Below, piece after piece: positions 1,754 to 14,330 of a stretch of DNA of 22,812 nucleotides; within the stretch, counting starts at the first letter, position 1; the number at the start of each line of letters is the position of its first letter. The stretch lies in the IMG/VR virus record IMGVR_UViG_3300031216_000069, positions 1 through 22,812 of that record. One strand, given 5' to 3'. Under the pieces are notes generated by a model, which did not search any database, was not told the origin of the DNA, and saw only the letters and a list, made by a program, of their open reading frames with translations. Position numbers and translations under genes: made by a program. Source of the DNA: a virus.

Positions 1754-1920
1754 CGGGCGAACGAGGACGACGCGTGACAGGGGGTCAACCAGGCGATGTG
1801 GAACGAAAGATCCTGGCGGATGACGTGCGGCGCGAGGAGCGGCTAATCACTGAGTGGGAGGAGCACCGCTCCAAGATTCTTTCGGACGAAAGGTTGCAAT
1901 CCCGACACGGGTCGGGGTAG
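1750..1920 (+). CDS. 56-aa charged, helix-rich hypothetical protein ending in the promoter repeat
   Basis: GTG 1750 overlaps the upstream TGA (GTGA); GTG 1774 is an alternative start. The product is rich in charged residues (KILADDVRREERLITEWEEH), probably one amphipathic helix. Its last codons run through the conserved promoter repeat, and its TAG stop (1918-1920) is the first three bases of the TAGGTT -10 hexamer. The C-terminus ERLQSRHGSG is therefore encoded by -35/operator DNA. No family is recognised. Confidence 0.5.
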   Translation: MTGERGRRVTGGQPGDVERKILADDVRREERLITEWEEHRSKILSDERLQSRHGSG

Positions 1921-1923
1921 GTT
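1885..1923 (+). promoter_or_regulatory. Dispersed promoter-operator repeat, copy 1
   Basis: After a GACGAAAGG lead-in come TTGCAA (1894-1899), an 18-bp spacer (1900-1917) holding the dyad CCCGACACGGGTCGGG (1901-1916), and TAGGTT (1918-1923). The ATG of the next gene is at 1930, exactly 6 nt after the -10 hexamer and with no Shine-Dalgarno, predicting a leaderless transcript. A dyad lying between -35 and -10 is a classic repressor position. The same element recurs at 5892, 6854 and 11276. Confidence 0.85.
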
Positions 1924-1929
1924 GCAGAC

Positions 1930-2139
1930 ATGACCGAAACCGCCGCCCTCGCCAACTGCTTCATCTGCTCGCAGGCCATCCGCTCAACCGACGACAACGT
2001 CGGCTTCGGCTACACCGCCGACGAGGTCACCGACCCCTTCACCGCCGACTGGCATCCGATCCCCGGCAACGAGGACAAGGCCTTCCACCGGGACTGCGCC
2101 GAAGATCACGGTCACGCCCTCGGCCTCCACGAAGCCTGA
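1930..2139 (+). CDS. Small zinc-binding-type protein, first gene of a leaderless cassette
   Basis: The product has 69 residues. CFIC at about 10-13 and FHRDC at about 51-55 give a C-x2-C ... H-x2-C arrangement typical of a single zinc site. The start at 1930 is fixed by the promoter 6 nt upstream and by the lack of any Shine-Dalgarno. No specific family is recognised. The next gene is reached over a 26-nt gap with its own strong ribosome-binding element. Small Cys-pair proteins like this are common in the early or accessory regions of actinobacteriophages and usually have unknown function. Confidence 0.75.
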   Translation: MTETAALANCFICSQAIRSTDDNVGFGYTADEVTDPFTADWHPIPGNEDKAFHRDCAEDHGHALGLHEA

Positions 2140-2142
2140 TCC

Positions 2143-2160
2143 CGAACACCTACCGAAAGG
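2143..2160 (+). promoter_or_regulatory. Conserved ribosome-binding element, copy A
   Basis: CGAACACCTACCGAAAGG lies between the leaderless gene and ATG 2166. The same 18 nt with one mismatch occurs at 11506-11523, in the same place after another leaderless gene. GAAAGG is the Shine-Dalgarno core; conservation of the preceding CGAACACCTACC is not explained by ribosome binding alone. Confidence 0.7.
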
Positions 2161-2165
2161 CACCC

Positions 2166-2318
2166 ATGCTCGACCCGACCCCCAACTTCAAGCACCTCAT
2201 CATCGACGACCGATGCGTCCACTGCGACATCGACCGAAACGCCGTCAAGGAACGCCGAGCGCCCCTCAACTGCGACGCCCGGCAAGAGCACACCGCCAAG
2301 TACGGGAGCGAGCGATGA
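2166..2318 (+). CDS. 50-aa hypothetical protein with a CVHC pair
   Basis: ATG 2166 follows GAAAGG by 5 nt. The 50-residue product contains CVHCDIDRN and a further Cys (NCDARQEH), so it may bind a metal ion, but no family is recognised. Its TGA overlaps the next ATG (ATGA at 2315-2318), indicating translational coupling. Confidence 0.7.
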   Translation: MLDPTPNFKHLIIDDRCVHCDIDRNAVKERRAPLNCDARQEHTAKYGSER

Positions 2319-2803
2319 CCGCACATAGAGCCCGTCCGTACGGGGCCATGATCGACCGGGCATTCGCCTCCGCTGATCCCCGAGAACGGATACTCCTCCG
2401 TTGGCTGTACCGCCGTTTCCGTGAAGGCCAATACGCCACACCGTTCTCAGCGCGAGCCACCGTCGCCGCCTACACCATGAAGGCCGAAGGCCGAACGATG
2501 AGACGCGACGACGCACCGCCGCACGGCATCCCACGCCCGATCATCATGCCGGACTGGGACACCCTCACCGCCCGCCCGTCGCAATGCGAAGCGCAGAGCT
2601 GCGACCTCCGAGTCGACACCGGAGACTTCCGATTGTGGACCGCCCGCACCGGCCTCGATGAGGGTGAGCCGTACGAGCGCACCGTGTACGTCGAATTGTT
2701 GACTGACACCAGATGGGTCAACCTCGGCCACTACGACGGCGACGAACCGCCACGCGGTCTGCCCGGCGTCACGCCGCACGCGTTCCGAGGGGAGCTGCCA
2801 TGA
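2315..2803 (+). CDS. 162-aa hypothetical protein of the small-gene operon
   Basis: ATG 2315 overlaps the upstream stop and the gene ends in an ATGA overlap with the next. The N-terminal part (residues about 1-50) is basic and helical (DPRERILLRWLYRRFREGQ). The rest is mixed alpha/beta with two Cys (CEAQSCDLRV) and several Trp. No catalytic motif is recognised. The basic helix could bind nucleic acid, but this is a guess. It belongs to the run of overlapping genes from 1930 to 3761. Confidence 0.7.
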   Translation: MTAHRARPYGAMIDRAFASADPRERILLRWLYRRFREGQYATPFSARATVAAYTMKAEGRTMRRDDAPPHGIPRPIIMPDWDTLTARPSQCEAQSCDLRVDTGDFRLWTARTGLDEGEPYERTVYVELLTDTRWVNLGHYDGDEPPRGLPGVTPHAFRGELP

Positions 2804-2874
2804 ACCTCATCGCCGACAAGATCCGCTTCGTAGAGCGCAACCTGCCCGAGTACGACCCCAACCTCGCAGCGTGA
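2800..2874 (+). CDS. 24-aa mini-protein in the operon
   Basis: ATG 2800 overlaps the upstream stop (ATGA) and its own stop overlaps the next ATG (TGATG at 2872-2876). The product, MNLIADKIRFVERNLPEYDP followed by NLAA, is probably one amphipathic helix. Overlap at both ends supports translation, whether for the peptide itself or to carry ribosomes to the next gene. Confidence 0.5.
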   Translation: MNLIADKIRFVERNLPEYDPNLAA

Positions 2875-3047
2875 TGCCCGCTGTCCCGCAGCAAGTCGAA
2901 TGCCCGAACTGCTGGCACACGTTCAACCCGTCCGGTCACTCAACCCGCCGCAACAGCAGGAGACTCCCCGAACGGCACGGCCACTGCGCCGACGACTACA
3001 CCATCGCGTCGGCGCAGCTCGCCGCCCGACGAAAGCGCCCCTCGTGA
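2874..3047 (+). CDS. 57-aa zinc-finger-like protein
   Basis: ATG 2874 overlaps the previous stop (TGATG). The product has CPNCWHTF near residues 11-18 and a later HGHC, a plausible four-ligand zinc site. Its C-terminal part (TIASAQLA, then a basic RRKRPS tail) includes a 25-bp segment (2999-3023) identical to DNA inside the otherwise unrelated gene at 5928. The stop overlaps the next GTG (GTGA). Function unknown. Confidence 0.65.
   Translation: MPAVPQQVECPNCWHTFNPSGHSTRRNSRRLPERHGHCADDYTIASAQLAARRKRPS
2999..3023 (+). repeat. 25-bp exact direct repeat, copy 1
   Basis: This 25-bp coding stretch, beginning CACCATCGCGTCGGCG and encoding TIASAQLA, is identical to 6176-6200, with the same reading frame used in both genes. 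The flanking sequences and proteins differ. Confidence 0.85.
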
Positions 3048-3202
3048 CCCGAGAGATCACCTGCCACGGCTGCGCCGCCACCGCCACCACCGACCGCCTC
3101 GACATCGCGATGAAGTTCGGCGACATCATCGTCTACACCTGCCCCGTCTGCGGAACCCAACTCGACCCGATCGCCCACATCAACACGCAGATGAACCCAT
3201 GA
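3044..3202 (+). CDS. 52-aa zinc-ribbon protein
   Basis: GTG 3044 overlaps the upstream stop (GTGA). The product carries two CxxC knuckles, CHGC at about residues 7-10 and CPVC at about 33-36, separated by a beta-rich stretch (FGDIIVYT). This is the classic zinc ribbon seen in small DNA- or RNA-binding or regulatory proteins. The stop overlaps the next start (ATGA). The specific role is unknown. Confidence 0.7.
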   Translation: MTREITCHGCAATATTDRLDIAMKFGDIIVYTCPVCGTQLDPIAHINTQMNP

Positions 3203-3396
3203 ACCGCCACGACTTCCACCACTGCGTCGCACGCGACCACCCCACGGGCTGCTCCAAAGACCGCGCCCTCTACATCGGAACAGACGGCAAGCGGTACTGC
3301 CAAGCCCACCTCCCCGACAAACGCTGGCGAACATCCTGCACCCACACCTTGTCCACACCCGGCAACCCGTGCCCGTTCTGCGGAACCCCCACATGA
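3199..3396 (+). CDS. 65-aa Cys/His-rich protein
   Basis: ATG 3199 overlaps the upstream stop. Seven cysteines and several histidines are present (FHHC, GC, YCQAH, CTH, CPFC), enough for one or two zinc sites; the CPFC near the C-terminus is a typical knuckle. No family is recognised. The gene is coupled by ATGA to the RusA-like gene. Confidence 0.65.
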   Translation: MNRHDFHHCVARDHPTGCSKDRALYIGTDGKRYCQAHLPDKRWRTSCTHTLSTPGNPCPFCGTPT

Positions 3397-3761
3397 CCGA
3401 CCACATCCTCACCTTCGACGCACCCGCCACCCCAATCAGCATGAACCAAGGCGACACATGGTCAGTACGCCGAGACGCCGCCGCATGGCGCGACCGGGCC
3501 TACTACGCCTGGTGCCACCACTGGCCCAACACAGGACCATCAGGCCGGAACCTGCCACCCTCCGCCGTCCACACCGCACTCCCCTTCCCAACAAACAGAC
3601 GCCGCGACCCAATCAACTACGCAAAGACCGTCAAACACATCGTCGACGGCCTCACCCAAGCCGGAGCCTGGCCCGACGACACCCCCAACTGGGTCACCCA
3701 ACACATCCCCACCCTCCACCCCGGCACCACACTCGTCATCATCACCATCACACCCCAATAG
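3393..3761 (+). CDS. RusA-like Holliday junction resolvase
   Basis: The product has 122 residues from ATG 3393 (ATGA overlap), close to the 120-residue RusA family size. The hallmark region RRDPINYAKTVKHIVDGL followed by AGAWPDDTPNWV matches the RusA pattern of an acidic motif, a helix with conserved Lys and Asp, then a DD pair; these Asp residues are the presumed Mg2+ ligands. An N-terminal strand segment (ILTFDAPATPISMNQ) also fits. RusA dimers resolve four-way junctions; phages use them to debranch replication intermediates before packaging, consistent with the position just ahead of the terminase genes. It is the last gene of the operon beginning at 1930. Confidence 0.8.
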   Translation: MTDHILTFDAPATPISMNQGDTWSVRRDAAAWRDRAYYAWCHHWPNTGPSGRNLPPSAVHTALPFPTNRRRDPINYAKTVKHIVDGLTQAGAWPDDTPNWVTQHIPTLHPGTTLVIITITPQ

Positions 3762-3785
3762 AGCTACACACCGATACACGACCAC

Positions 3786-3798
3786 TACCATCACCACA
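3786..3798 (+). promoter_or_regulatory. Putative leaderless -10 element for the ribbon-helix-helix gene
   Basis: TACCAT (3786-3791) lies 7 nt before GTG 3799 and no Shine-Dalgarno precedes the start. A good -35 is not obvious. The spacing matches the other leaderless starts in the window. Confidence 0.45.
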
Positions 3799-3981
3799 GT
3801 GGTCACCAAACGCCGAACCCCCCGAGGAACACCACGCCGCCAAACAAACCTCCGCCTCGACGCCCACAAGCTTGAACAACTCCGAGACGAATCCGAACGA
3901 CGCGGCTACAGCATGAGCCGCATCGTGGACGACGCCCTCGAACTGTGGCTCGACCTCTACGGAGGCCAGGATGTCCGCTGA
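3799..3981 (+). CDS. Ribbon-helix-helix (CopG/Arc-like) DNA-binding protein
   Basis: The 60-residue product has a basic N-terminus (VTKRRTPRGTPRRQ), then a beta strand TNLRLD and two helices (AHKLEQLRDESERRG; SMSRIVDDALELWLDLY). This is the MetJ/Arc/CopG fold, which dimerises and inserts the strand into the major groove of palindromic operators. GTG 3799 is the only sensible start. It overlaps the small terminase gene by 11 nt. It could regulate the late genes, or bind the CCCGAC-N4-GTCGGG dyads found four times here. The fold is well supported; the target is inference. Confidence 0.8.
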   Translation: MVTKRRTPRGTPRRQTNLRLDAHKLEQLRDESERRGYSMSRIVDDALELWLDLYGGQDVR

Positions 3982-4474
3982 ACCCACCCCCATCAAAGGG
4001 CGCTCCGGCAAACGAACACGCCCACTGAACTCGCAAGAACACCTCGACCTGCACCGCGCTGTCGGCGTCCTCCAAACCGGAGGCACCATCGAGCAAGCAG
4101 CCGAAGCGATCGGCACCACCCGGCAAACCCTCAAACGCCACCTCGAAACGCCCGAAGGCCGAGGCATCGTCCGCGAGTACGAAGCCGACCTCACCGAACG
4201 CACGAACCGACTCCTCGCTGCAGGGCAGGCCGTCGCACTACGCACCCTCCTCTCGGCGATGAACGAAGCAGACCGATGGTCCGACCGCATCCGTGCCGCC
4301 GACGCGTTCGCCCGCCTCGGACCCCGCCAGATCATCGTGACCGGAGGCGACGGAGGACCCATCGAGATCACCTCGTCCACCGAAGCGCTCGTGGACCGCC
4401 TGGCACGGATGCGCAAGGCCAACATCGAAGCGATCGAAACGTCAGCGATCGAGCTCACCGAGGGCGGGTCGTGA
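3971..4474 (+). CDS. terS: Putative terminase small subunit
   Basis: The 167-residue product starts at ATG 3971, 5 nt after GGAGG. Residues about 36-57 form a helix-turn-helix (TIEQAAEAIGTTRQTLKRHL) like the DNA-recognition domain of small terminases; a longer helical region follows (EYEADLTERTNRLLAAGQ ... RIRAADAFARLG), suited to ring oligomerisation, then a short beta segment (QIIVTGGDGGPIEIT). The GTGA overlap with the large subunit gene makes the assignment likely. TerS recognises the packaging site and stimulates TerL. Length and layout fit the family; sequence alone does not prove it. Confidence 0.75.
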   Translation: MSAEPTPIKGRSGKRTRPLNSQEHLDLHRAVGVLQTGGTIEQAAEAIGTTRQTLKRHLETPEGRGIVREYEADLTERTNRLLAAGQAVALRTLLSAMNEADRWSDRIRAADAFARLGPRQIIVTGGDGGPIEITSSTEALVDRLARMRKANIEAIETSAIELTEGGS

Positions 4475-5883
4475 CGGACCTCCGGTACCGGGCACCCGCC
4501 CAACTGTCCGACATCGAACTGGCAATCCTCGCCGGGACTGACGGCAACCTCCTCGACGGCCTCACCGAACACGAGGCAGAGGAGCTTCTGCATCATTGGC
4601 CGTCGTGGAGGCGCCCATCGCAGCGCATCCCGGCGAACATGGGCTACGACTACCGAGTCTGGTTCATCCGCGCTGGCCGAGGGTTCGGAAAGACGAGGAC
4701 CGGAGCGGAAACGTGCCGCATTATGTCGGAACGGTGCAAGCGGATCGCTCTCGTCGCACCGACCCGTTCCGAGGTGCGCGACATTATGATCGAAGGCGAG
4801 TCCGGCCTGATGGCTGCGTTCCCGTCATGGGAGCAGCCGATCTACGAACCGTCGCGCCGTCGCGTGGTATTCCCGTCCGGCTGCATCGGCTTCATGTACT
4901 CGGCGGAGACGCCGGACCGGTTGCGAGGCCCGCAGCACGAGTGGGCGTGGGTGGAGGAGCCCGCGTCGATGAAGCTGCACGGCGACGACATGATGAGCAA
5001 CCTCCTCCTCGGGCTGCGCCTCGGCGACGCACCGTGGGCGCTGATGACGGGAACACCGAAGATGCTGCCGTGGCTGCGCCGCATCGCCGAGCGGACATCG
5101 ACTGTCGAGACGCGCGGTTCCACGTACGAGAACATCTCGAACCTGGCACCGACCTTCGTGGAGGACGTGGTGGACCGGTACGAAGGGACGCGCCTCGGAC
5201 GGCAGGAGCTTCACGCCGAGTGGCTTGAGGATGTCGAGGGCGCACTGTGGCTCATGGGCACCGTGGACGACAACCGGATGATCGACTGGAAGCAGGACGA
5301 CCCGTGGGCCTCGCTCAGCAAGTTCCTCGTCGCCAACGAGCGTCCAGCGATCACTCAGGCGGGTCGAGCCTGGAAGACGATCGTGGCCGTCGATCCGCCT
5401 GGCGAGACGGCCGAGTGTGGAATCGTCGTCGGGTCGGCTCCGGTGCACGCGAAGGCGGGCCGCGATCATGCTGTCATCTGGCGTGACGCTTCGATGACTG
5501 GACGGCCCGAGGAGTGGGGGTCGGCGGTGGTACGGGCCTACCGGGAGTCGAACGCCGCAGCGGTGCATGTGGAGTCCAATCAGGGCGGCGACATGACAAG
5601 GGCGACGATTCACGCGGTTGACCCTTCGGTGGTGGTCAAGAAGATCACGGCGCGCGGGTCGAAGCAGACGAGGGCGGAGCCGGTTGCTGCCCTGTACGAG
5701 CGGGGCTGGATTCATCATGTCGGCGCGATGCCTGAGCTGGAGGAGCAGCTAACGACGTGGATACCTTCGGATGCGAAGTCGCCGGACCGGCTCGATGCGT
5801 TGGTGCATTGCGTGGCGACTCTGCTGCCGGAGGGTCAGCAGCACGCGTCGCGTGTCGGGAAGGCCACCGGCAGAAATATTTAG
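4471..5883 (+). CDS. terL: Terminase large subunit (packaging ATPase/nuclease)
   Basis: The product has 470 residues from GTG 4471 (GTGA overlap with TerS). The ATPase domain shows Walker A RAGRGFGKT (residues 67-75), Walker B and catalytic acid HEWAWVEE (156-163), and the coupling motif MTGTPK (192-197). The RNaseH-like nuclease shows AVDPPGE (Asp308), VHVESNQGG (Glu368) and PDRLDAL (Asp439/Asp442) as metal ligands. It pumps DNA into the prohead and cuts concatemers. The TAG stop (5881-5883) directly abuts promoter repeat copy 2. Unusually, about 2.6 kb of small genes separate it from the portal gene. Confidence 0.95.
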   Translation: MTDLRYRAPAQLSDIELAILAGTDGNLLDGLTEHEAEELLHHWPSWRRPSQRIPANMGYDYRVWFIRAGRGFGKTRTGAETCRIMSERCKRIALVAPTRSEVRDIMIEGESGLMAAFPSWEQPIYEPSRRRVVFPSGCIGFMYSAETPDRLRGPQHEWAWVEEPASMKLHGDDMMSNLLLGLRLGDAPWALMTGTPKMLPWLRRIAERTSTVETRGSTYENISNLAPTFVEDVVDRYEGTRLGRQELHAEWLEDVEGALWLMGTVDDNRMIDWKQDDPWASLSKFLVANERPAITQAGRAWKTIVAVDPPGETAECGIVVGSAPVHAKAGRDHAVIWRDASMTGRPEEWGSAVVRAYRESNAAAVHVESNQGGDMTRATIHAVDPSVVVKKITARGSKQTRAEPVAALYERGWIHHVGAMPELEEQLTTWIPSDAKSPDRLDALVHCVATLLPEGQQHASRVGKATGRNI

Positions 5884-5921
5884 ACGAAAGGTTGCAGTCC
5901 CGACAACGGTCGGGGTAGGTT
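5884..5921 (+). promoter_or_regulatory. Dispersed promoter-operator repeat, copy 2
   Basis: After ACGAAAGG come TTGCAG (5892-5897), an 18-bp spacer with the dyad CCCGACAACGGTCGGG (5899-5914), and TAGGTT (5916-5921). The ATG at 5928 is 6 nt downstream, as in copies 1 and 4. The dyad centre is AACG here and in copy 3, but ACGG in copies 1 and 4. Confidence 0.85.
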
Positions 5922-5927
5922 GTCGAC

Positions 5928-6338
5928 ATGAGCCAAACAGCAACTACCACCGCCTTCAACACCACCGAGTTCGCACAGCGCATCGTCACTCGGGCCAACT
6001 CCGAGATCACCGCCTCGGGCGAGGCCATGTCAGCAGCCCCCAACCTCGGAGCGGACTACACCGCCGACGACCTGCGCAACGCCCTCACGACCCGCACCGA
6101 GCTCGCCGCCTCCGTCAAGGTGTGCAGAACCGCCATGAGCGTCGCCAGCTTCATCGCCCGCAACGCCGACGAATTCACCATCGCGTCGGCGCAGCTCGCC
6201 ATTATGAGCGAACTCATCGACCTCGCCACTGACGGCGCAGACGACACCTGGTCGGGCCGGGGCAACGATGACGCCCGCATCGCCAACGATGCGAAGCTCG
6301 CCACCATCCGCATGATCCGTGACTGGGTGTCGGCATGA
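5928..6338 (+). CDS. 136-aa helical hypothetical protein, leaderless
   Basis: The product is Ala/Thr-rich and probably all-helical (EFAQRIVTRANSEITASGEAMS, DDLRNALTTRTELAASVKVC, SELIDLATDG). No catalytic motif, signal peptide or membrane segment is seen. The start is set by the promoter repeat 6 nt upstream. It contains the second copy of the 25-bp repeat (6176-6200, encoding TIASAQLA). The stop overlaps the next ATG (ATGA). Function unknown. Confidence 0.75.
   Translation: MSQTATTTAFNTTEFAQRIVTRANSEITASGEAMSAAPNLGADYTADDLRNALTTRTELAASVKVCRTAMSVASFIARNADEFTIASAQLAIMSELIDLATDGADDTWSGRGNDDARIANDAKLATIRMIRDWVSA
6176..6200 (+). repeat. 25-bp exact direct repeat, copy 2
   Basis: Identical to 2999-3023 and read in the same frame (TIASAQLA), inside a different gene. 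It lies 3.2 kb from copy 1, on the other side of the terminase genes. Confidence 0.85.
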
Positions 6339-6487
6339 GCCGCGACGACCGGATGCAGTACGAGATAGACCCGTCCGACCGCTGGGACATCGACCTCGCA
6401 CTCTGGTCGCCGCAGCCCGGCGAGCCGGTCGAGCCGTTGCCGCCCGAGGCCGATGAGCGCACCTACTGCCGGGACCACTGGGCATGA
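6335..6487 (+). CDS. 50-aa acidic hypothetical protein
   Basis: ATG 6335 overlaps the upstream stop, and the stop overlaps the next ATG (6484), both as ATGA. The product is acidic and Pro-rich in the middle (SPQPGEPVEPLPPEADE), with a C-terminal YCRDHWA. No family is recognised. Tight double overlap supports it as a real gene of the 5928 operon. Confidence 0.6.
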   Translation: MSRDDRMQYEIDPSDRWDIDLALWSPQPGEPVEPLPPEADERTYCRDHWA

Positions 6488-6618
6488 CCCCTCGCGGGGC
6501 GCACGACTTCCGGCGAGGACCGGACGGCCAGTGGCAGCGTCAACGGCGCGACGAGCTGGCGTGGCGCACCCTCGTCGTGAAGGAGCGGCCGGAAAGGAAC
6601 CACTGGAAGTGGGAGTGA
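6484..6618 (+). CDS. 44-aa basic hypothetical protein
   Basis: ATG 6484 overlaps the upstream stop and the TGA overlaps GTG 6615. The product is rich in Arg and Trp (FRRGPDGQWQRQRRDELAWR), which would suit nucleic acid binding, but no known motif is present. Confidence 0.55.
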   Translation: MTPRGAHDFRRGPDGQWQRQRRDELAWRTLVVKERPERNHWKWE

Positions 6619-6803
6619 ACGAGACGTGCCTGGCCGTGTGGACCGCAGATCGGCGCTGCTTCGGTTGGGCCGTCAACGGTGATCCGCTCCACGGCTGTGA
6701 GCTTGAGCTTGGGCATCGCCGCCGTACGCGAGCCCATCAGTGTCGGTGCGGCGCGCAGGCGGGCAACGACGGGGTGCTCCCGCCGCCTCGGTTGAACCCG
6801 TAG
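6615..6803 (+). CDS. 62-aa Cys/His-containing hypothetical protein
   Basis: GTG 6615 is chosen for its GTGA overlap; GTG 6609 in the same frame is an alternative. Cysteines occur in CLAVW, RRCFGW, HGCELELGH and CRCG, consistent with metal binding. The pattern RRCFGWAVNGDPLHGCELELGH resembles small phage proteins with a Cys-x-n-HxxC site, though no named family fits. It ends the operon, followed by a hairpin at 6802-6832. Confidence 0.6.
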   Translation: MNETCLAVWTADRRCFGWAVNGDPLHGCELELGHRRRTRAHQCRCGAQAGNDGVLPPPRLNP

Positions 6804-6832
6804 CGGTCGGGGAGTACGAACCCCGCCCCGCT
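6802..6832 (+). terminator. GC-rich hairpin, possible terminator
   Basis: AGCGG (6802-6806), one unpaired base, CGGGG (6808-6812), an 8-nt loop AGTACGAA, CCCCG (6821-6825), two unpaired bases, CCGCT (6828-6832): a 10-bp interrupted stem between the last operon gene and promoter copy 3. There is no U-tract, which is common for terminators in GC-rich actinobacteria and their phages. Confidence 0.45.
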
Positions 6833-6845
6833 CAGGATTGTCTAC

Positions 6846-6883
6846 ACGAAGGGTTGCATTCCCGACAACGGTCGGGGTAGGTT
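6846..6883 (+). promoter_or_regulatory. Dispersed promoter-operator repeat, copy 3
   Basis: TTGCAT (6854-6859), an 18-bp spacer with the dyad CCCGACAACGGTCGGG (6861-6876), and TAGGTT (6878-6883). Unlike the other copies, no start codon follows at 6 nt. Instead a short leader carries ACACCCACCCCGAAAGG (6891-6907), related to the ribosome-binding element after the leaderless genes, and ATG 6916. This copy looks like the cassette without its first gene. Confidence 0.8.
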
Positions 6884-6915
6884 GCTCGTAGACACCCACC
6901 CCGAAAGGAAACGCC

Positions 6916-7428
6916 ATGCCCACCAACACCACACCCGCCCTCCCAGCCCATAGGAGCACCGCAGGATTCCCCCTGCAAGCCTGCACTCGATGCGGCGGCG
7001 GAGGCCACTACAGCTTCAACTCGGTCACCGGCTCCACCTGCTTCGGATGCGGCGGAACAGGATGGGTCGTAGCAGCCGGAGCACGCAAGGCCCACGGCGA
7101 ATACCACACGGCCTTCCGCGCCGAGACGCAACCCATGCTCGGCAACGTCGAACGCAACGACATCATCGAATGGCCGTACCGCTCCGACCAGTGGCACACC
7201 GTCGAAACGACACTGGTCGACCATGACACCCCGTGCGGCTGGTCGAACGGCGAGGAGTGTGCATGGCGCATCGTCATCCACCTCGATGACGGAGAACCCA
7301 TCAACGCCGCCACCCACCAGGTCGTCAACCGGAAGAAGCGCGACACCTGGCACGCCCGCCGAGCCGAGTACGTCGAAGCGGCCCTCAAAGGCTGGCGGCG
7401 CTCCGGCAAGAAGGGCGGCGTCAAGTGA
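6916..7428 (+). CDS. DnaJ-type zinc-finger-like protein
   Basis: The product has 170 residues from ATG 6916, 9 nt after GAAAGG. Residues about 23-49 hold CTRCGGGGHY and CFGCGGTGWV, two CxxCxGxG-type knuckles that would form half of a DnaJ-like zinc domain. The remainder is mixed alpha/beta with several Trp/His and a basic C-terminal tail (GWRRSGKKGGVK). In DnaJ these repeats bind unfolded protein, but isolated pairs in phage proteins have no settled role. There is no J-domain. The stop overlaps the next GTG (GTGA). Confidence 0.7.
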   Translation: MPTNTTPALPAHRSTAGFPLQACTRCGGGGHYSFNSVTGSTCFGCGGTGWVVAAGARKAHGEYHTAFRAETQPMLGNVERNDIIEWPYRSDQWHTVETTLVDHDTPCGWSNGEECAWRIVIHLDDGEPINAATHQVVNRKKRDTWHARRAEYVEAALKGWRRSGKKGGVK

Positions 7429-7703
7429 CCGCCATCATCTACCGGGACCAGCACCCCACCTTCACCGAGGTGGAGGAGGAGTACGTGTGGGGCGCGTTCG
7501 GTCCGATCTCCGGCGGTCGATGGGCCTCGTACGACGAGTACGAGGCGTTCTGCGTCCGATGCGGAACGGTAGTCGGCTTCACCGTCGACGTGTGCGACGA
7601 AACCGGGCACGACCGGGTCCGCACAATCACTATTTGGGAGGATCCCCTGATGCAGCCGTATTGCGAAGATTGCGTCATCGACGTAGAGGACGCAGCGCGA
7701 TGA
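7425..7703 (+). CDS. 92-aa protein with two CxxC knuckles
   Basis: GTG 7425 overlaps the upstream stop. CVRC (about residues 43-46) and CEDC (about 83-86) flank a beta-rich region with an additional Cys and His (VDVCDETGH), forming a likely zinc site. Aromatic, acidic N-terminus (EVEEEYVWGAFG). No family is recognised. Coupled by ATGA to the next gene. Confidence 0.65.
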   Translation: MTAIIYRDQHPTFTEVEEEYVWGAFGPISGGRWASYDEYEAFCVRCGTVVGFTVDVCDETGHDRVRTITIWEDPLMQPYCEDCVIDVEDAAR

Positions 7704-7879
7704 GCGGCAGGCCCCGTCCTCACGGCGCAGCCCTGAACGTCGTCTGTACCGGCGACTGGGCTTGCGATGGCCGGTCGCACTGCTCATGTTGGTGGGATGC
7801 CCCGCTGAACTCGGAGGCTGACTGCTGCTGCGGCGACATCGAAACGTACGACAAGTGGGCGAAACGGGTCCAGCGATGA
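7700..7879 (+). CDS. 59-aa Cys-rich protein
   Basis: ATG 7700 overlaps the upstream stop. The product has at least seven Cys (VVCTGDWACDGRSHCSCWW ... DCCCGD), one of the highest densities in the window, suggesting one or two zinc or other metal sites. No family is recognised. The stop overlaps the next ATG. Confidence 0.6.
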   Translation: MSGRPRPHGAALNVVCTGDWACDGRSHCSCWWDAPLNSEADCCCGDIETYDKWAKRVQR

Positions 7880-8088
7880 GCGGCTACCGGAAGCAACTAC
7901 GCAAGGTCGCAGCGAAACGAGGGTGGACGATCAGTGTTCGAAACAACTCGCACCTTCGTCTCTCAAAGCAAGGGTGCCGGGACGTCAACTGCTCGATGAG
8001 CCCAAAGACCGACATGACGATCAAGGCCGTCGAGCGGGACATGGACAGGGCCGAAGGGCTCCGCCCCGACCCGTACGCCACCCACTGA
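7876..8088 (+). CDS. HicA-like small protein (dsRBD-like fold)
   Basis: The product has 70 residues from ATG 7876 (ATGA overlap). The layout of an N-terminal helix (YRKQLRKVAAKRGW), strand TISVRNN, SHLRLSK and a later strand plus helix (VNCSMSP ... TIKAVERDMDRAE) follows the HicA mRNA-interferase fold, in which a His in the SH-x-hydrophobic strand is catalytic; His34 in NSHLRL fits. No HicB antitoxin is adjacent, so this may be an RNA-binding or regulatory relative rather than a toxin. Fold moderately supported; activity unproven. Confidence 0.6.
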   Translation: MSGYRKQLRKVAAKRGWTISVRNNSHLRLSKQGCRDVNCSMSPKTDMTIKAVERDMDRAEGLRPDPYATH

Positions 8089-8097
8089 CGATCCGAC

Positions 8098-8109
8098 TAC
8101 GATCGGCTC
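8098..8109 (+). promoter_or_regulatory. Putative leaderless -10 element for the DUF1360-like gene
   Basis: TACGAT (8098-8103) and CGGCTC directly precede ATG 8110. The same TANNNT-CGGCTC-start arrangement is found at 8523-8535. No Shine-Dalgarno is present and no clear -35 is seen. Confidence 0.5.
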
Positions 8110-8400
8110 ATGCCGTTCCTCCTCGTCGCGTTGACCATCCTCGCCGTATGGCGGATCACCCGGTTCGTCACGATGGACTTCCTGGCCGAACCGGTCCGAG
8201 CGTGGGCCGCGCGCCGAGGCGAGAAGATCGGCTACCTGTTCGAATGCCCGTGGTGCCTGAGCATCTGGATCGCTCCGATCGTCGTAGTGCCGGTTGTCAT
8301 CTGGCCGGACAACCGAGCCATCCTCGCCGCACTCCTCGTCTTGACGGCGTCCGGTGCGGCCGGGATGCTCGCCGTCATCGAAGATCGCCTCGACCGGTGA
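8110..8400 (+). CDS. DUF1360-like membrane protein
   Basis: The 96-residue product has a hydrophobic N-terminal segment (PFLLVALTILAVWRITRFV), then a polar region (DFLAEPVRAWAARRGEKIGYLF), ECPWCLSIW, and two further hydrophobic stretches (IAPIVVVPVVIW; ILAALLVLTASGAAGMLA). The combination WRITR...D followed by C-x-W-C-x-S-x-W is typical of DUF1360 proteins found in phages and Gram-positive bacteria. The function is unknown; an inner-membrane location is expected. Together with the next small membrane protein it is the only candidate here for a lysis-related membrane function, but that is speculative. Confidence 0.7.
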   Translation: MPFLLVALTILAVWRITRFVTMDFLAEPVRAWAARRGEKIGYLFECPWCLSIWIAPIVVVPVVIWPDNRAILAALLVLTASGAAGMLAVIEDRLDR

Positions 8401-8507
8401 CGTGGGTAGACCTACTCGTTGGCGCGTTGTTCTTCGTCGTGTTTGGTGCCGGGATGCTCGGAGAAGCGTGGTGGCGTCGTCGCAGCGGCCGAGACTATCC
8501 CTGGTGA
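8397..8507 (+). CDS. 36-aa single-span membrane peptide
   Basis: GTG 8397 overlaps the upstream stop (GTGA). The peptide has one hydrophobic helix (WVDLLVGALFFVVFGAGMLG) followed by a basic tail (EAWWRRRSGRD), so it should be N-out/C-in by the positive-inside rule. It is coupled to the DUF1360-like gene, which suggests that the two act together in the membrane. Holin-like accessory, membrane anchor or superinfection functions are possible; none is shown. Confidence 0.6.
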   Translation: MTWVDLLVGALFFVVFGAGMLGEAWWRRRSGRDYPW

Positions 8508-8522
8508 CCTGAGCCGGGAAGG

Positions 8523-8534
8523 TAACCTCGGCTC
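8523..8534 (+). promoter_or_regulatory. Putative leaderless -10 element for the portal gene
   Basis: TAACCT (8523-8528), then CGGCTC, then GTG 8535: again 6 nt and no Shine-Dalgarno. The CGGCTC between hexamer and start is identical to that before 8110. Confidence 0.5.
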
Positions 8535-10430
8535 GTGAGCGATCGACCGACACGTTCCAAGCCGCACGTATTTAGCCTCGTCGCCGCTGCAGAAGTCATC
8601 ACGTCGAAGGGCGTCACCCGCAAGCTCAAAGGGCAGAGACTTCTCCCGTGGCAGGAGCAAGCGTGGATGCACTACGACACGGTCGGGGAGTTCCGGTTCG
8701 GTGTGAACTGGTTGTCGAACGCCATGTCGCGCGTCAACTTGACGGCCGCTCGCCCACCGTTGCAGGTCGGCGACGAACCGACTCCGATCCGCACCGACAG
8801 CGACTCGCCCGAGGAGTACACGAAGGCGCAGCGGCGTGCCGCCGAGCTGGTCGAGTACATCGCTGGTGGATCAATCGGGCAAGGGCAGATCCTCGGCGAG
8901 TTCGGGCAGCACCTTTCGGTCGCCGGGTTCGGGTGGCTCATCGCCGAACCCGACCTTGAGGACGAGGACGCCGACGAGTACGAGACGTGGGGCGTCTACT
9001 CACAGGACGCCGTGAAGGTCGAATCGAACAAGGTGATGATGGCGACCGGTGGCAGCGGTAGCGACGGGTGGCGCGTAGTGCATCCGAGCGCCCTCGTCGT
9101 GAAGTGCTGGCGGCGTCACCCTCGTCGCCCGTGGGAACCGGACGCTCCGGTGCGGGCCGTCCTCGGCATCCTCGACCAGATCGACCTACTGTCGGCGCAC
9201 ATCACAGCGACGGGCCGCTCCCGTCTGGCCGGTGCCGGGATGATGGCGATCCCCACGGAAGCCGAGTTCCCTCCTGCTCCGATCCCCGAGGACGGCTCAA
9301 CTCCGCTCGACCCGTTCGACTACTTCGTGGAGAACCTGGTCGAGACGATGACCGTTCCGATCCGCGACCGGGACAACGCCTCGTCCGTCGTGCCGCTCGT
9401 CGTGCAGATCCCCGGCGAGTACATCGACAAGTTGAAGCACCTCTCGTTCTCGACGCCGTTCGATGCGCAGGCGAAGGAGTTGCTGACCGACGCGATCAAG
9501 CGGCTGGCGCTCGGCCTCGACATGCCGCCCGAGATCCTGATGGGCATGGGTGGCGTCAACCACTGGACCGCCTGGCAGGTTGAGGAGACTGCCGTCACGC
9601 TGCACATCGAACCGGCTGCAGAGGTGGTCTGCGCTGCGCTGACCGAGGGGTACCTTCGTGCCGCGCTCGAAGCGGAGGGCCTGCCCACAAACGAGGCGAT
9701 CGTCTGGTACGACACGTCCGACCTGACATCTCCTCCCGACAAGTCAGGGAACGTGGTCCTCGCATACGACCGCAACGAGGTGTCGGCTGCGGCGTTGCGT
9801 CGCGAGCTCGGGCTTGGCGAGGATGACAAGCCGGACGACGCCGAGTTCCGAAAGCGGGTGCTCCTTGAGTTGGCTCGCGCTGCCCCTGTGCTCGCTCCCG
9901 CCCTCCTCGCCGAAGTGGGCATCATGGCGGAGGAGATCGCAGTTGCACCGGAGGATGTCCCAGCACTGGAAGATGCTGCACGCCCGTCTACGCCTGGCGA
10001 TGGGCCGTCCGGTCCGGACAGCCGTACGGGCGGAACACCGCCACGAGGTGACCGTCCAGGCGTCGATGCGGGCGCTGCGGTGTCGGCGACGATCATGGCG
10101 TGCGACGGCATCGTGTATCGGGCGATGGAGCGTGCCGGTTCTCGTCTTCGTTCGGCGATCGGCCGGAAGGTTCCTGGCGGGCCGCAAGCCGTTGACCACG
10201 TTGACCCGACAACGCTGCACTCGGTGTACGACGCGACCGTCTACGCCGACCTCGATGCGCTGCTCACGGGAGCGTTCGATCGGGTACCTGACGTAGCCGA
10301 GTTCCTCGGGATCGACAGCGACGCTTTGGCCGGAACGCTGAACGCGTACTGCCGTGCGCTACTCGCATCCGGTCTGCCGCATGACCGGATGCGGCTCACG
10401 TCAGCGTTGGGCGCGGAAGCGACGATCTGA
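8535..10430 (+). CDS. Portal protein
   Basis: The product has 631 residues from GTG 8535. Order and content fit phage portals: an N-terminal entry region (QRLLPWQEQAWMHYDTVGEFRF), the early helix NWLSNAMSRV, an acidic wing region, and a central helical part (QAKELLTDAIKRLALGLDMP, then PEILMGMGGVNHWTAWQVEE and TVTLHIEPAAEVVCAALTEG-like segments) typical of the portal stem and crown in actinobacteriophages. The C-terminal 130 residues are Pro/Gly-rich then helical. It forms the dodecameric ring at one capsid vertex, where terminase docks and DNA enters. Overlap with the MuF-type gene (TGATG) supports the assignment. Confidence 0.85.
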   Translation: MSDRPTRSKPHVFSLVAAAEVITSKGVTRKLKGQRLLPWQEQAWMHYDTVGEFRFGVNWLSNAMSRVNLTAARPPLQVGDEPTPIRTDSDSPEEYTKAQRRAAELVEYIAGGSIGQGQILGEFGQHLSVAGFGWLIAEPDLEDEDADEYETWGVYSQDAVKVESNKVMMATGGSGSDGWRVVHPSALVVKCWRRHPRRPWEPDAPVRAVLGILDQIDLLSAHITATGRSRLAGAGMMAIPTEAEFPPAPIPEDGSTPLDPFDYFVENLVETMTVPIRDRDNASSVVPLVVQIPGEYIDKLKHLSFSTPFDAQAKELLTDAIKRLALGLDMPPEILMGMGGVNHWTAWQVEETAVTLHIEPAAEVVCAALTEGYLRAALEAEGLPTNEAIVWYDTSDLTSPPDKSGNVVLAYDRNEVSAAALRRELGLGEDDKPDDAEFRKRVLLELARAAPVLAPALLAEVGIMAEEIAVAPEDVPALEDAARPSTPGDGPSGPDSRTGGTPPRGDRPGVDAGAAVSATIMACDGIVYRAMERAGSRLRSAIGRKVPGGPQAVDHVDPTTLHSVYDATVYADLDALLTGAFDRVPDVAEFLGIDSDALAGTLNAYCRALLASGLPHDRMRLTSALGAEATI

Positions 10431-11272
10431 TGGCGTGGCCCCTCCCGGCCGAGCCGCCCTTGAACGCGTCCCCTGAGCGCACTGAGGAGTACCTGCGTGA
10501 GATGCAAGAGGTGCTGGCTGCGAGGATGGGTGACGAGGCTGGCCGGTTGGCGCGCGAGGCGGTCGTCGCGTACGCCGACGCGATGACGGCGGCGGTCGGT
10601 GACCCTGCCGTGTTCGACGCTGCGGAGGTGGCGTGGCGTGGCTTCATCACGCAGGAGGTCGGGTCGTACGTGGCGGGCATTCACCTGAACGGTGCGATGG
10701 TCGCGTTCTTCCGTACGCCGGGACTCGACGGCATCATCGACGATGTGGCCGAGGCGTGGCTGACGGTGGTCAACGAAGGGGCTGTCACCTATCAGGCGAC
10801 GGCAACGAACCGGATCGTGCAGGCGTCGGCGAGCACCTGGTCGGATGTCCGCTCGAAGACGGTGACTGCTCTGAGCGAGGGACTGTCGAACGAGGAGCTC
10901 AAGGAGTCGATTGAGGCGGTGACCGGCTACTCCGAGTATCGGGCTGCGACGATCGGCCGGACGGAGACGATGCAGGCGTACAACGCTGGCGATCTTGCTG
11001 GCGCGAAGGGGTTGGGGGAGTACGGGCCTCACGAGAAGGTGTGGATCGCTGCGCTTGATGCGCGTACTCGCGTGGAGCACGCCGAGGCTGATGGGCAGAC
11101 GGTCGGCATCAACGAGATGTTCGTGGTCATGGGCGAGCAGATCGAGCGGCCGGGCGAGGGGTCGGCGGCGAACGTTGTGAACTGTCGGTGCGTGATGGAG
11201 TTCCTGTATCCAGGCGATGCGCGGCCGGACGGCTCGGTTGTGCCGGAGACGCCCGAAGTTTCTTTGGACTAA
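10430..11272 (+). CDS. MuF-type minor head (head morphogenesis) protein
   Basis: The product has 280 residues; ATG 10430 overlaps the portal stop. The N-terminal two thirds is helical. The C-terminal region has the Mu gpF/SPP1 gp7 pattern: TIGRTETMQAYNAG (about residues 175-188), EKVWIAALDARTRVEHAEAD with the conserved W...D.RTR..H, DGQTV, and the terminal NVVNCRCVMEF. Family members bind the portal or are packed in the prohead in small numbers. It is the standard neighbour of the portal. Its TAA stop (11270-11272) abuts promoter repeat copy 4. Confidence 0.88.
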   Translation: MAWPLPAEPPLNASPERTEEYLREMQEVLAARMGDEAGRLAREAVVAYADAMTAAVGDPAVFDAAEVAWRGFITQEVGSYVAGIHLNGAMVAFFRTPGLDGIIDDVAEAWLTVVNEGAVTYQATATNRIVQASASTWSDVRSKTVTALSEGLSNEELKESIEAVTGYSEYRAATIGRTETMQAYNAGDLAGAKGLGEYGPHEKVWIAALDARTRVEHAEADGQTVGINEMFVVMGEQIERPGEGSAANVVNCRCVMEFLYPGDARPDGSVVPETPEVSLD

Positions 11273-11305
11273 GGGTTGCAATCCCGACACGGGTCGGGGT
11301 AGGTT
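11270..11305 (+). promoter_or_regulatory. Dispersed promoter-operator repeat, copy 4
   Basis: TTGCAA (11276-11281), an 18-bp spacer with the dyad CCCGACACGGGTCGGG (11283-11298), and TAGGTT (11300-11305). ATG 11312 follows after 6 nt. The spacer is identical to copy 1. It splits the head operon between the MuF-type gene and the protease. Confidence 0.85.
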
Positions 11306-11311
11306 ACAGAC

Positions 11312-11503
11312 ATGAGCAACCCCGACGCCCTCAAAAACATCCTCCTCCGCACCGCAGTGGCGCTCGACGCCCGCGCCGCTCAGGCTCTCCGCCTGGCGCA
11401 GAACGCAGCGGAGTTCGGCATGAACGCCGACCGCTACCAGGCTCAGTGGCAGTCATTCGCTGACCGCTCCAACCGAGCCGACCACGCAGCCTGGAACGGC
11501 TGA
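11312..11503 (+). CDS. 63-aa helical hypothetical protein, leaderless
   Basis: The product is Ala-rich and probably two or three helices (NILLRTAVALDARAAQALRL, then FGMNADRYQAQWQSFADRSN). No Cys, no membrane segment and no known family. The start is set by the promoter repeat. Like the gene at 1930 it is followed by the 18-nt conserved ribosome-binding element and a second small gene, although the two leaderless proteins are unrelated in sequence. Confidence 0.7.
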   Translation: MSNPDALKNILLRTAVALDARAAQALRLAQNAAEFGMNADRYQAQWQSFADRSNRADHAAWNG

Positions 11504-11505
11504 AT

Positions 11506-11523
11506 CGAACACCTACCCAAAGG
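11506..11523 (+). promoter_or_regulatory. Conserved ribosome-binding element, copy B
   Basis: CGAACACCTACCCAAAGG differs from 2143-2160 by one base and sits in the same place: after the stop of a leaderless gene and shortly before the ATG of a second gene (11531). Confidence 0.7.
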
Positions 11524-11530
11524 ACACATC

Positions 11531-11878: not shown

Positions 11879-12538
11879 TCAGGGCGACGCTTGCAGCCTG
11901 CGTAGAAGCTGCCGTCCGATGTGCTCCGTGTACGCCGGAGGGATCGCCTTTGAAAGCGGGTGAGTCGGAAGCCAATCGATGCCCATCGCGATCTGACGAA
12001 GCCGTAACTCCCCCTCGTACTGCAGGTTCCCGTGAACCCCGACGACCGACGACAGCTTCTTCGTTCGCATCGAGTTGTTCAGCGACCGGAACCGAGGCTG
12101 CTGCCATTCGTGCATACACCGCTTCCCGGCGCACGGCCAGTTCGTTTCAAACAGGCGATGCCGCCGAAGGTGCAGGCGAAACGACGAACCGCAGAGCATG
12201 ACCGGATTCCGTAGGTGCGGGCGCGCCGCTGCAACGTTCTCGATCACGTACGGGACGCCGGAGGCGAAGAGGCGGTCACGGATGACGGCGATGAGGTTGA
12301 CATGCTCGTGCCGATTTGGGGTGACCGTTGAGAACACCTGGCACGGAGGCGACGCGTGGATCGCATCGAAGCGCAACGGCCACGACGCCACGTCCACCGC
12401 ATCCGCCTGAATGAACTGGAACGGGTAGTCCGGCATCGGATTCCGGTCAATCCCGATCACGTCGAAGCCTGCCCGGTGGTAGCCCATCGACGCTCCACCG
12501 CCACCGCAGAAGAGGTCGAGGAGTACCGGTCGGGTCAC
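11879..12538 (-). CDS. DNA (cytosine-5) methyltransferase, short phage type
   Basis: The product has 219 residues from GTG (complement of 12536-12538). Motif I is LLDLFCGGGGASMGYHRAGF (residues 6-25), an acidic motif II lies in VIGIDRN, motif IV is SPPCQ with catalytic Cys66, motif VI is IENV (99-102), motif VIII is RRHRLFETNW, and the C-terminus IPPAYTEHIGRQLL matches motif X. The target recognition region is very short compared with Dcm/HhaI (about 330 residues), as in other actinophage methylases of this size. It probably methylates phage DNA against restriction. It is the only reverse-strand gene here, with its own promoter and terminator, so it behaves like a moron inserted in the head operon. 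Confidence 0.9.
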   Translation of the reverse strand: MTRPVLLDLFCGGGGASMGYHRAGFDVIGIDRNPMPDYPFQFIQADAVDVASWPLRFDAIHASPPCQVFSTVTPNRHEHVNLIAVIRDRLFASGVPYVIENVAAARPHLRNPVMLCGSSFRLHLRRHRLFETNWPCAGKRCMHEWQQPRFRSLNNSMRTKKLSSVVGVHGNLQYEGELRLRQIAMGIDWLPTHPLSKAIPPAYTEHIGRQLLRRLQASP

Positions 12539-12593: not shown

Positions 12594-14096
12594 ATGCCGA
12601 AGCTCACACTGTCCCTCGACTCCGACGAGGTCGCTCCCGACGCGGTCGAGGAGCTACCCGTGACCGAAGCGGCCACGCAGCGATGGCTCCTCGCCATCGA
12701 AGGTTCGCCTACGGGCGACGGCCGCACCTTCGAGGACAACGCGTTCACCTGGCGTGAGCTGCCACTGCCGTTCATGGCAACCGACGTAACTGGCGAAGGG
12801 CACGACGGCGCGAAGCTCGTCGCCAAGCTGGTCAACATCGAACGTGTCGGATCCTCGATCTACGGCTACACCGAGAACATCGCGTCCGACGACCCCGACG
12901 TGCTCCGACTGCAGAAGCTCATGACCGAAGGCGACCTGCTCGGCGTGTCCGTCGACCTGGACGACATCGCCGGAGAGATGATCTACGCAGTGCCCTCCGA
13001 GGAGGACGCCGCACCGTCCGAAGATGGCGACATGAGGATCGCCATCGGCGGCAACGCTGAACGCCTCGTGTTCTCCAAGGCCCGCATTATGGGCGCTACC
13101 GCCGTCCCGTTCCCAGCGTTCGCCGAGGCGCGTCAAGCGAGTGCTGTCCTCATCGCCGGAGCCGGGCGGATGTTCTGCGCGCTGACGGCCGACGCAGCAG
13201 AGGATCGTCGCACCGTCGAGGACGCGATCGGCGACGACCCCGAGGCGCTGGAAGCGTTCGTGCGACTCCTCGCCGAGATCGGCGTCGATGCTGCCGAGGA
13301 CGTGAGCGAAGCCGACGATGTCGAGGTGGAGGAGGCGGCAATCACCGCTGCCGTCGAGCCGCCCGACGCTCCTCCTGCAGCGTGGTTCGCCGACCCGCAG
13401 ATTGAGGATCCGTTTCCTGGCATCCGTGTCACTGACGACGGACGCGTGTACGGCTACCTCGCCCTGTGGGACACCTGTCATGTCGGGTTCCAAGATCAGT
13501 GCGTCATGGCACCCCGCTCGGCAATCGACTACGCAGCGTTCCGGTCCGGTGAAATCATCACGGCCGAGGGTGGGCGGATCGCTGTGGGCACGATCACCAC
13601 CGGCTCCGGTCATGCCCCACTGAACGCCAGCACCCTTCGCGCGAAGGAGCACTACGACCACACCGGTTGGGGAGCGGCCGACGTTGCGTGCGGCGAGAAC
13701 GGTCACGGCATCTGGTTGGCTGGTGCCGTCCGGTCGGGACAGTCGAGCGCCGAGCTTCGAGAGTTCATGGCGGCGAAGGTGTCCGGCGACTGGCGACGGG
13801 TTGAGGGCAACCTTGAGCTCATCGCGGTGGCCTCGGTCAACTCGCCGGGGTTCCCAACGGTGCGGGCATCCCTCGTCGCTGGCGCAGTGTCGGCCCTGGT
13901 GGCTGCACCGGACGGCGGCTGTGCGCCCGCTGAGCGTTCGCCGGGGTCACAGGCCGCAGCGGAACGTGTAGCGGCCACAATCGGCCGTCACCCGGCGCAG
14001 CGGCAAGCGCAGCGGGATGAACTGGCCTCGAAGATCGGCCGCGACCCGTTCCAACGACGACTCGCTCTCGCTGTACGCGTGAAGGGAACGAACTGA
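12594..14096 (+). CDS. Capsid maturation protease (two-domain actinophage type)
   Basis: The product has 500 residues from ATG 12594. Residues about 20-200 form a first domain (WLLAIEGSPTGDGRTFEDNAF, later GDLLGVSVDLDDI and ATAVPFPAFAEA) like the prohead proteases of the HK97/herpes assemblin type, with Ser in GVSVDL as a candidate nucleophile. After an acidic linker, residues about 260-440 form a second conserved unit (GRVYGYLALWDTCHVGFQ, GHAPLNAS, HYDHTGWGAADVACGENGHGIWLAGAV, SGDWRRVEGNLELIAVASVNSPGFP), known from actinophage maturation proteases. It trims scaffold and capsid protein during prohead maturation. Its position before the major capsid gene fits. Confidence 0.8.
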   Translation: MPKLTLSLDSDEVAPDAVEELPVTEAATQRWLLAIEGSPTGDGRTFEDNAFTWRELPLPFMATDVTGEGHDGAKLVAKLVNIERVGSSIYGYTENIASDDPDVLRLQKLMTEGDLLGVSVDLDDIAGEMIYAVPSEEDAAPSEDGDMRIAIGGNAERLVFSKARIMGATAVPFPAFAEARQASAVLIAGAGRMFCALTADAAEDRRTVEDAIGDDPEALEAFVRLLAEIGVDAAEDVSEADDVEVEEAAITAAVEPPDAPPAAWFADPQIEDPFPGIRVTDDGRVYGYLALWDTCHVGFQDQCVMAPRSAIDYAAFRSGEIITAEGGRIAVGTITTGSGHAPLNASTLRAKEHYDHTGWGAADVACGENGHGIWLAGAVRSGQSSAELREFMAAKVSGDWRRVEGNLELIAVASVNSPGFPTVRASLVAGAVSALVAAPDGGCAPAERSPGSQAAAERVAATIGRHPAQRQAQRDELASKIGRDPFQRRLALAVRVKGTN

Positions 14097-14310: not shown

Positions 14311-14330
14311 AACCTCAGAGTTGAGGTTTC
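14309..14330 (+). terminator. Perfect 9-bp hairpin terminator
   Basis: GAAACCTCA (14309-14317), loop GAGT, TGAGGTTTC (14322-14330): a perfect stem with a tetraloop, overlapping the stop of the upstream gene. It separates the protease operon from the capsid operon. The right arm ends TTTC, giving a short U-run. Confidence 0.8.

Follow-up and report, generated by a model that had tools for sequence, protein, structure and literature searches.

Dispersed predicted promoters with a proposed spacer operator form a putative regulon ahead of small-gene cassettes in an environmental phage

Results

The stretch of DNA analyzed here (the window) is the whole of IMG/VR record IMGVR_UViG_3300031216_000069, a phage fragment of 22,812 bases in which the gene starts are our own reading. 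It opens with small genes, followed by a RusA-like resolvase (3393), an Arc-like ribbon-helix-helix (RHH) protein (3799), a TerS-like gene (3971), the terminase large subunit (TerL) and a group of cassette genes. Beyond these lie a DUF1360 protein (8110), the portal (8535), a MuF-like gene, further cassette genes, a reverse-strand methyltransferase, a protease-like gene (12594) and the major capsid gene (14478). Four copies of a promoter-like element are dispersed through this arrangement (Table 1). The genes directly behind elements 1, 2 and 4 gave no convincing family match in Pfam or PHROG, and the gene behind element 3 gave weak matches only, to families of unknown function.

Table 1. Positions of the elements, leaders and genes discussed, counted from the first base of the window
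Feature	Position	Strand	Details
Element 1	1894..1923	+	TTGCAA (-35); dyad CCCGAC-ACGG-GTCGGG 1901-1916; TAGGTT (-10) 1918-1923
Small gene, 69 aa, predicted leaderless	1930..2139	+	ATG 6 nt after element 1 -10
Shine-Dalgarno leader, second gene of cassette 1	2144..2165	+	GAACACCTACCGAAAGGCAC
Arc-like ribbon-helix-helix protein, 60 aa	3799..3981	+	PHROG 3180, E 2.6e-6
Terminase large subunit (TerL), left border of TerL-portal gap	4471..5883	+	Pfam Terminase_6N, E 3e-14
Element 2	5892..5921	+	TTGCAG; dyad 5899-5914; TAGGTT 5916-5921; begins 9 nt after TerL stop
Small gene, 136 aa, predicted leaderless	5928..6338	+	Behind element 2; no PHROG/Pfam match
Element 3	6854..6883	+	TTGCAT; dyad 6861-6876; TAGGTT 6878-6883
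Leader with Shine-Dalgarno behind element 3	6884..6915	+	ACACCCACCCCGAAAGG...
Small gene, 170 aa, Cys-rich zinc-finger-like motif	6916..7428	+	Behind element 3; Shine-Dalgarno-led
Portal, right border of TerL-portal gap	8535..10430	+	PHROG 776, E 7e-147; TAACCT 6 nt upstream of GTG start
MuF-like head protein, left border of MuF-protease gap	10430..11272	+	PHROG 2468, E 6.5e-32
Element 4	11276..11305	+	TTGCAA; dyad 11283-11298; TAGGTT 11300-11305; begins 4 nt after MuF-protein stop
Small gene, 63 aa, predicted leaderless	11312..11503	+	Behind element 4
Shine-Dalgarno leader, second gene of cassette 4	11507..11530	+	GAACACCTACCCAAAGGACACATC
DNA methyltransferase inside MuF-protease gap	11879-12538	-	PHROG 363
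Capsid maturation protease-like, right border of MuF-protease gap	12594..14096	+	Predicted leaderless: TACGCT, 7 nt, ATG

The element, TTGCANTCCCGACANNGGTCGGGGTAGGTT (equivalent to TTGCAN-TCCCGACANNGGTCGGGG-TAGGTT), occurs four times in the window, always on the plus strand and with zero mismatches. The first-pass annotation had described four copies combining TTGCAN, an 18-bp spacer with a dyad, and TAGGTT; all four proved exact, and none arose by shuffling, as 100 dinucleotide-preserving shuffles of the window yielded 0 matches to TTGCANTCCCGACANNGGTCGGGGTAGGTT even at up to three mismatches. Reading the pattern backwards likewise gave 0 matches in the window. The CCCGAC-N4-GTCGGG dyad, with its perfect 6-bp arms, is found in the window only at the four elements, and the spacer between -35 and -10 is 18 bp in every copy. 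When the four were aligned, the block running from GGTTGCA through TAGGTT was identical except for a single base following TTGCA and two bases of the dyad loop; 5' of this block the similarity is looser, with a weaker common ACGAAAGG (gACgAAaGG). The looser pattern TTGCA-N18-TAGGTT matched the window 19 times against 15 expected, which is chance level, so that the significance resides in the whole element, dyad included.

An E. coli-style promoter scan of the window did not list the four elements because TTGCA and TAGGTT match TTGACA and TATAAT weakly. They look like putative promoters of the actinobacterial TANNNT type. In Actinobacteria, leaderless genes are recognisable by a TANNNT near the start codon, N6/7 from the ATG; one documented example, S. 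coelicolor furA, has TAGGTT-N7-ATG (PMC3160421). Behind elements 1, 2 and 4 an ATG follows exactly 6 nt after the -10 (1930, 5928 and 11312), a leaderless geometry that the first-pass annotation had missed, and the genes at these three positions are predicted to be read from leaderless mRNAs. The window elements are like the actinobacterial leaderless promoters in core and start-codon distance, furA also having TAGGTT, but they carry a putative common spacer operator, of which none is described for the latter (PMC3160421). More broadly, TANNNT stood 5-8 nt upstream of 9 of 33 likely gene starts as compared with 1 of 657 other ATG or GTG codons on the same strand of the window, a contrast that is large and uses a hand-made list of starts drawn up after some cases had been noticed, so that little weight attaches to an exact p-value; with the elements left out there were still 6, versus 1.

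Element 3 has no leaderless ATG, its gene starting at 6916 behind a Shine-Dalgarno leader. This leader, ACACCYACC..AAAGG, is joined to element 3 and also precedes the second gene in cassettes 1 and 4. That one core feeds two modes of translation start argues that its conserved part acts in transcription. The original description of the elements as promoter-like sequences ahead of small-gene cassettes is supported.

Relatives were retrieved by TerL alignment, with TerL identities of 55-60%. CCGAC-N4-GTCGG within a promoter spacer was found in eight other phage records representing about six lineages, the window's sites being matched to these by motif and position, as the flanks are not alignable. 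G001 (47 kb) holds six such promoters, its close relative G018 five, G006 three and G007 four, two of which have one arm mismatch; the reversed dyad pattern was found zero times in every record searched. An alignment of 21 sites drawn from seven records showed arms that hardly change and an N4 in 13 different forms. Spacers of 17-18 bp were seen at these sites, with 0-4 nt separating the dyad from the -10 (its centre is 7-11 nt away, and 7 or 8 in G001 alone), such that the invariant geometry claimed at first holds within the window phage and gives way across relatives, where the dyad slides within the spacer.

We then compared the synteny of the junctions for three dyad-bearing lineages, G001, G006 and G007. 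By gene synteny, both the TerL-portal and the MuF-protease gaps hold elements in the window and in each of the three. The first-pass annotation had named absence or scrambling of the elements in related phages as grounds for abandoning its proposal; the opposite was observed, with the spacer dyad kept in eight records and the junctions matching in these three lineages.

In two further lineages, a different repeated promoter stands at the TerL-portal and MuF-protease junctions, an observation missed by the first-pass annotation. The corresponding junctions of G004 carry a different dyad promoter, [GT]TGCAAGCGCTCGCAAGGCTTGCTAGATT, present in ten copies in that record (the MuF-protease assignment assumes that the contig closes into a circle), and those of G008 and G002 carry a promoter with GTTGGTT-N10-GTTGGTT, in six and three copies, respectively. 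Promoters with yet other dyads occur in the more distant relatives L127, L128 and L132, in two, two and three copies, respectively. Despite the different operators, the first codons behind many of the repeated promoters are identical, ATGACCACGA (L011, L012, L019; G001, G002, G008). The TerL tree was without resolution and the grouping of relatives rests on the portal tree, in which the window and L090 fall outside the other seven relatives and G004, with neither CCGAC nor the protein family A5 described below, sits beside G006 and G007, in which both are present (support 93/93). This placement indicates that the promoters in the structural block follow the regulator-bearing module, not the surrounding structural genes, and suggests selection for matched operator and regulator.

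Wider searches returned little. A whole-window DNA search in known phages gave no match, the strict element pattern found no IMG/VR record besides the window, and the element was absent from L005, the first relative found. A looser element pattern produced four single matches without promoter context, and a 30-nt match in MW202496 (E = 7) fell inside a structural gene; all were judged to be chance. Scanning bacterial genomes for TerL gave best identities of 43-46% in scattered phyla and no usable host. For known phage isolates whose portals are related, stretches of seven genomes (some of them incomplete) were covered, and these showed no leaderless dyad-promoter family. Streptomyces phage Abt2graduatex2 (L357) carries another repeat at 24755, 31344, 31619 and 32456, GGGG-TTGCACCAGCGG-CCCC then CTGTAG, the arms of which change in pairs (ACCGGGG/CCCCGGT, ACGGGGG/CCCCCGT, CCCGGGG/CCCCGGG), as in a hairpin.

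We then asked which protein might bind the dyad. The RHH protein at 3799, proposed initially as the first candidate, has no homologue in G001 or G006, both of which bear the dyad, and an Arc-type RHH regulon was rejected since the repressor is not conserved alongside the operator. A comparison of gene content identified three families, A4, A5 and A6, that are present in G001, G006 and G007 and missing from G004 and G008. A4, a MarR-like winged helix, was discarded: about 75 other phage loci have A4 without the dyad and three dyad-bearing records have no A4. A5 is a new family of 70-80 aa that is helix-turn-helix-like. As a lone IMG/VR query, in a test that was able to fail, A5 retrieved four new records (G019, G020, G021 and G022), and all four contained dyad promoters, with 4, 2, 5 and 1 copies, respectively, of TTG..CCGAC-N4-GTCGG and 0 in the control. 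Every near-complete record with the dyad had A5, and none of those lacking the dyad did. With lineages collapsed, the co-occurrence has p = 0.002 on a small sample of 6 versus 5 lineages, and it may in part reflect inheritance of one gene module.

The predicted A5 structure (pLDDT 94) comprises a long helix and two helices forming a helix-turn-helix-like pair. Its best structural neighbour was the DeoR DNA-binding domain at Z 6.0, a value that is not decisive for small helical proteins, with LuxR-type domains among the weak neighbours; no Foldseek match had E <0.001, and a sequence search of solved structures with A5 returned nothing. In G019 (L361 8898, 8945) and G021 (L364 about 8901, 8948), tandem dyads ~47 bp apart, one copy being mismatched in G021, precede a conserved operon encoding an HNH-like protein, a 154-aa protein, a 116-aa protein and, last, A5. 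Paired dyads ahead of an operon that ends in A5 are as expected for putative self-regulation. The dyads are accompanied by A6 (about 180 aa) as consistently as by A5, and A6 is also present in G019-G022; comparison with Pfam and PHROGs recognised no DNA-binding domain in it. We prefer A5 over A6 because the A5 model is helix-turn-helix-like, with DeoR and LuxR-type neighbours. The 22.8-kb window encodes neither family. With relatives of 41-50 kb, it may represent roughly half of a genome, and by extrapolation the binder in the window phage is likely an A5-family relative encoded on the unsampled part.

Discussion

We regard the elements as real, regulon-like operator-promoters for which protein binding and the direction of control are putative. 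What sequence comparison shows is that the elements exist, that they recur at orthologous junctions, that their half-sites are fixed and that A5 and the dyad occur together. On this basis, we think it fairly probable that sigma-A-type promoters with a spacer operator form one regulon under a phage dimeric repressor, likely an A5 relative. Each element would be a complete host-sigma-A-type promoter whose spacer contains the operator. A dimeric protein encoded by the phage would sit on the two CCGAC half-sites, as fixed arms around a free N4 centre are the mark of such a protein, and from its seat between -35 and -10 would most likely block RNA polymerase. Every copy precedes a small-gene cassette between late structural genes, and the copies would be switched together as one regulon, independently of the neighbouring structural genes. 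Transcripts from elements 1, 2 and 4 would begin on the A of the ATG or no more than 1-2 nt away from it, and those from element 3 would have a short leader containing a Shine-Dalgarno. Promoter activity, binding, the choice of A5 as binder, repression over activation and timing are what we infer here; for the last, the promoters may perhaps be on at DNA entry and then off as the regulator accumulates. The initial proposal of a phage-wide regulon under one dyad-binding protein fared better than every rival and gains from retention of the dyad in relatives, and its suggestion of the RHH protein at 3799 as that binder is withdrawn.

Alternatively, the dyad could bind a MerR-like (or some other) activator that twists or bridges the 17-18 bp spacer and leaves the promoters silent until it is made. 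Spacer operators are typical of MerR activators, and the imperfect -35 and -10 hexamers, with no E. coli-type promoter called, would suit promoters in need of activation. MerR promoters, however, have 19-20 bp spacers and strict dyad placement, features not found here, where the spacer is shorter and the dyad centre varies even within G001. The sliding position would suit steric repression better than a phase-critical activator, and we consider activation unlikely.

A second possibility is that the repeats are recombination seams or the ends of mobile cassettes, with any promoter role secondary. The elements do lie at junctions where unrelated small genes swap, in some relatives (G001, G002 and G008) the similarity extends to the opening codons, ATGACCACGA, and element 3 is fused directly to a leader that elsewhere precedes a second gene. 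Conservation nevertheless tracks the -35, the half-sites and the -10, not the full length, and the motif changes among relatives in step with A5, not with the structural genes, which makes this origin distinctly unlikely. It is very unlikely that the binder is a host regulator whose operator was recruited by the phage. A dyad class common to several phage lineages would be compatible with that origin, but TTGNANNCCCGACNNNNGTCGGGNTANNNT, as a strict pattern only, had no match in 84,980 bacterial and archaeal genomes, phages without A5 have a different element at the corresponding junctions, and A5 alone predicts the dyad. Finally, it is extremely improbable that the dyad acts in read-through late transcripts as an RNA hairpin, whether for termination, processing or translation. 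The 6-bp GC-rich stem with its 4-nt loop would permit one, and folding was better than in shuffled sequence at two of the four contexts (z -3.2 and -3.0) but not at the other two (z -0.4 and -0.6). No T-run follows the dyad, no terminator was called at the elements, the arms in relatives are constant without paired changes as the loop varies, and each element stands upstream of the start that is predicted for it.

Among known systems, the closest in kind to the proposed operator-promoters are the ESAS of cluster K mycobacteriophages; the window element works alike but is not an ESAS. ESAS are conserved intergenic sequences of 46-47 bp in which SigA-like hexamers 17-18 bp apart accompany an imperfect inverted repeat (PMC11373665). 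The repeats have a subcluster-specific consensus, and a DNA-binding protein has been proposed to bind them (PMC3203893). The repeats are imperfect over 15-17 bp, and ESAS are paired with a SAS, a 13-bp sequence close to the start codon, the SAS sites being confined to the non-structural half of the genome (PMC3203893; PMC11373665). The two share dispersed intergenic copies, SigA-like -35 and -10 boxes at that distance, an inverted repeat and a place before small genes. They differ in that the window dyad has perfect arms of 5-6 bp wholly inside the spacer, and in that the window starts are mostly leaderless and its sites stand between structural genes. The 13-bp SAS GGGATAGGAGCCC, sought 3-7 nt before start codons, is absent from the window at up to two mismatches. 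The first-pass annotation had considered the element, for its inclusion of the whole core promoter, to be unlike SAS/ESAS; this contrast was overstated, as a later description gives ESAS -35 and -10 boxes and a repeat as well (PMC11373665).

Cluster A stoperators (L5, D29) are likewise short dispersed sites for one phage regulator but are asymmetric, 13 bp long and outside promoter spacers; a search of the window gave one match with 2 mismatches against 1.2 expected, and none beyond chance. In P22, the Arc operator sits between the -35 and -10 of Pant and is bound by a small dimeric RHH repressor. The arrangement proposed here is alike in having a phage operator between -35 and -10 and a small dimeric repressor, and differs in that P22 has a single site and an RHH protein, whereas here there are several sites and the window RHH protein is not linked to the dyad. 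The phiC31 repressor binds numerous palindromic operators scattered through a single actinophage genome, with many at promoters; its palindromes are longer and the protein is a large immunity repressor, and we found no link between the two systems.

More tentatively, and with somewhat less than even confidence, we suggest that these features could amount to an undescribed circuit of environmental actinophages. An A5-type protein and its spacer operator would run dispersed leaderless promoters of swappable late-operon cassettes, and close relatives would swap operator specificity (CCGAC dyad, GCAAGC dyad, GTTGGTT repeat, CTAGG dyad), giving regulons that do not cross-talk despite common structural genes. 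The late genes of tailed phages are usually pictured as a single block with a single control. In this phage, accessory genes amid the head genes appear to own a common switch, kept at the junctions while the genes behind it change. The element may thus serve as a DNA tag for accessory, possibly anti-host, genes in uncultured actinophages. It also offers a regulator and operator that can be tested as a pair, as well as a naturally occurring collection of compact and possibly orthogonal actinobacterial promoters, and would place the still unexplained cluster K ESAS in a wider class of dispersed operator-promoters.

Several minor features of the window were also recorded. At 231-527, an array of a 15-bp unit encodes pentapeptide-like repeats (GGVIx/GGYIx type) inside a 224-aa ORF (82-756) that weakly matches PHROG families of unknown function. 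Positions 2978-3023 and 6155-6200 are 87% identical over 46 bp and give a common ADEFTIASAQLA-like peptide to two otherwise different small genes in two cassettes, which we read as a putative shared or copied protein segment. The methyltransferase in the MuF-protease gap weakly matches an ORF overlapping the A4/A5 region of G006. Directly before the major capsid gene, a perfect 9-bp hairpin at 14309-14330, GAAACCTCA-GAGT-TGAGGTTTC, is a possible terminator or processing site.
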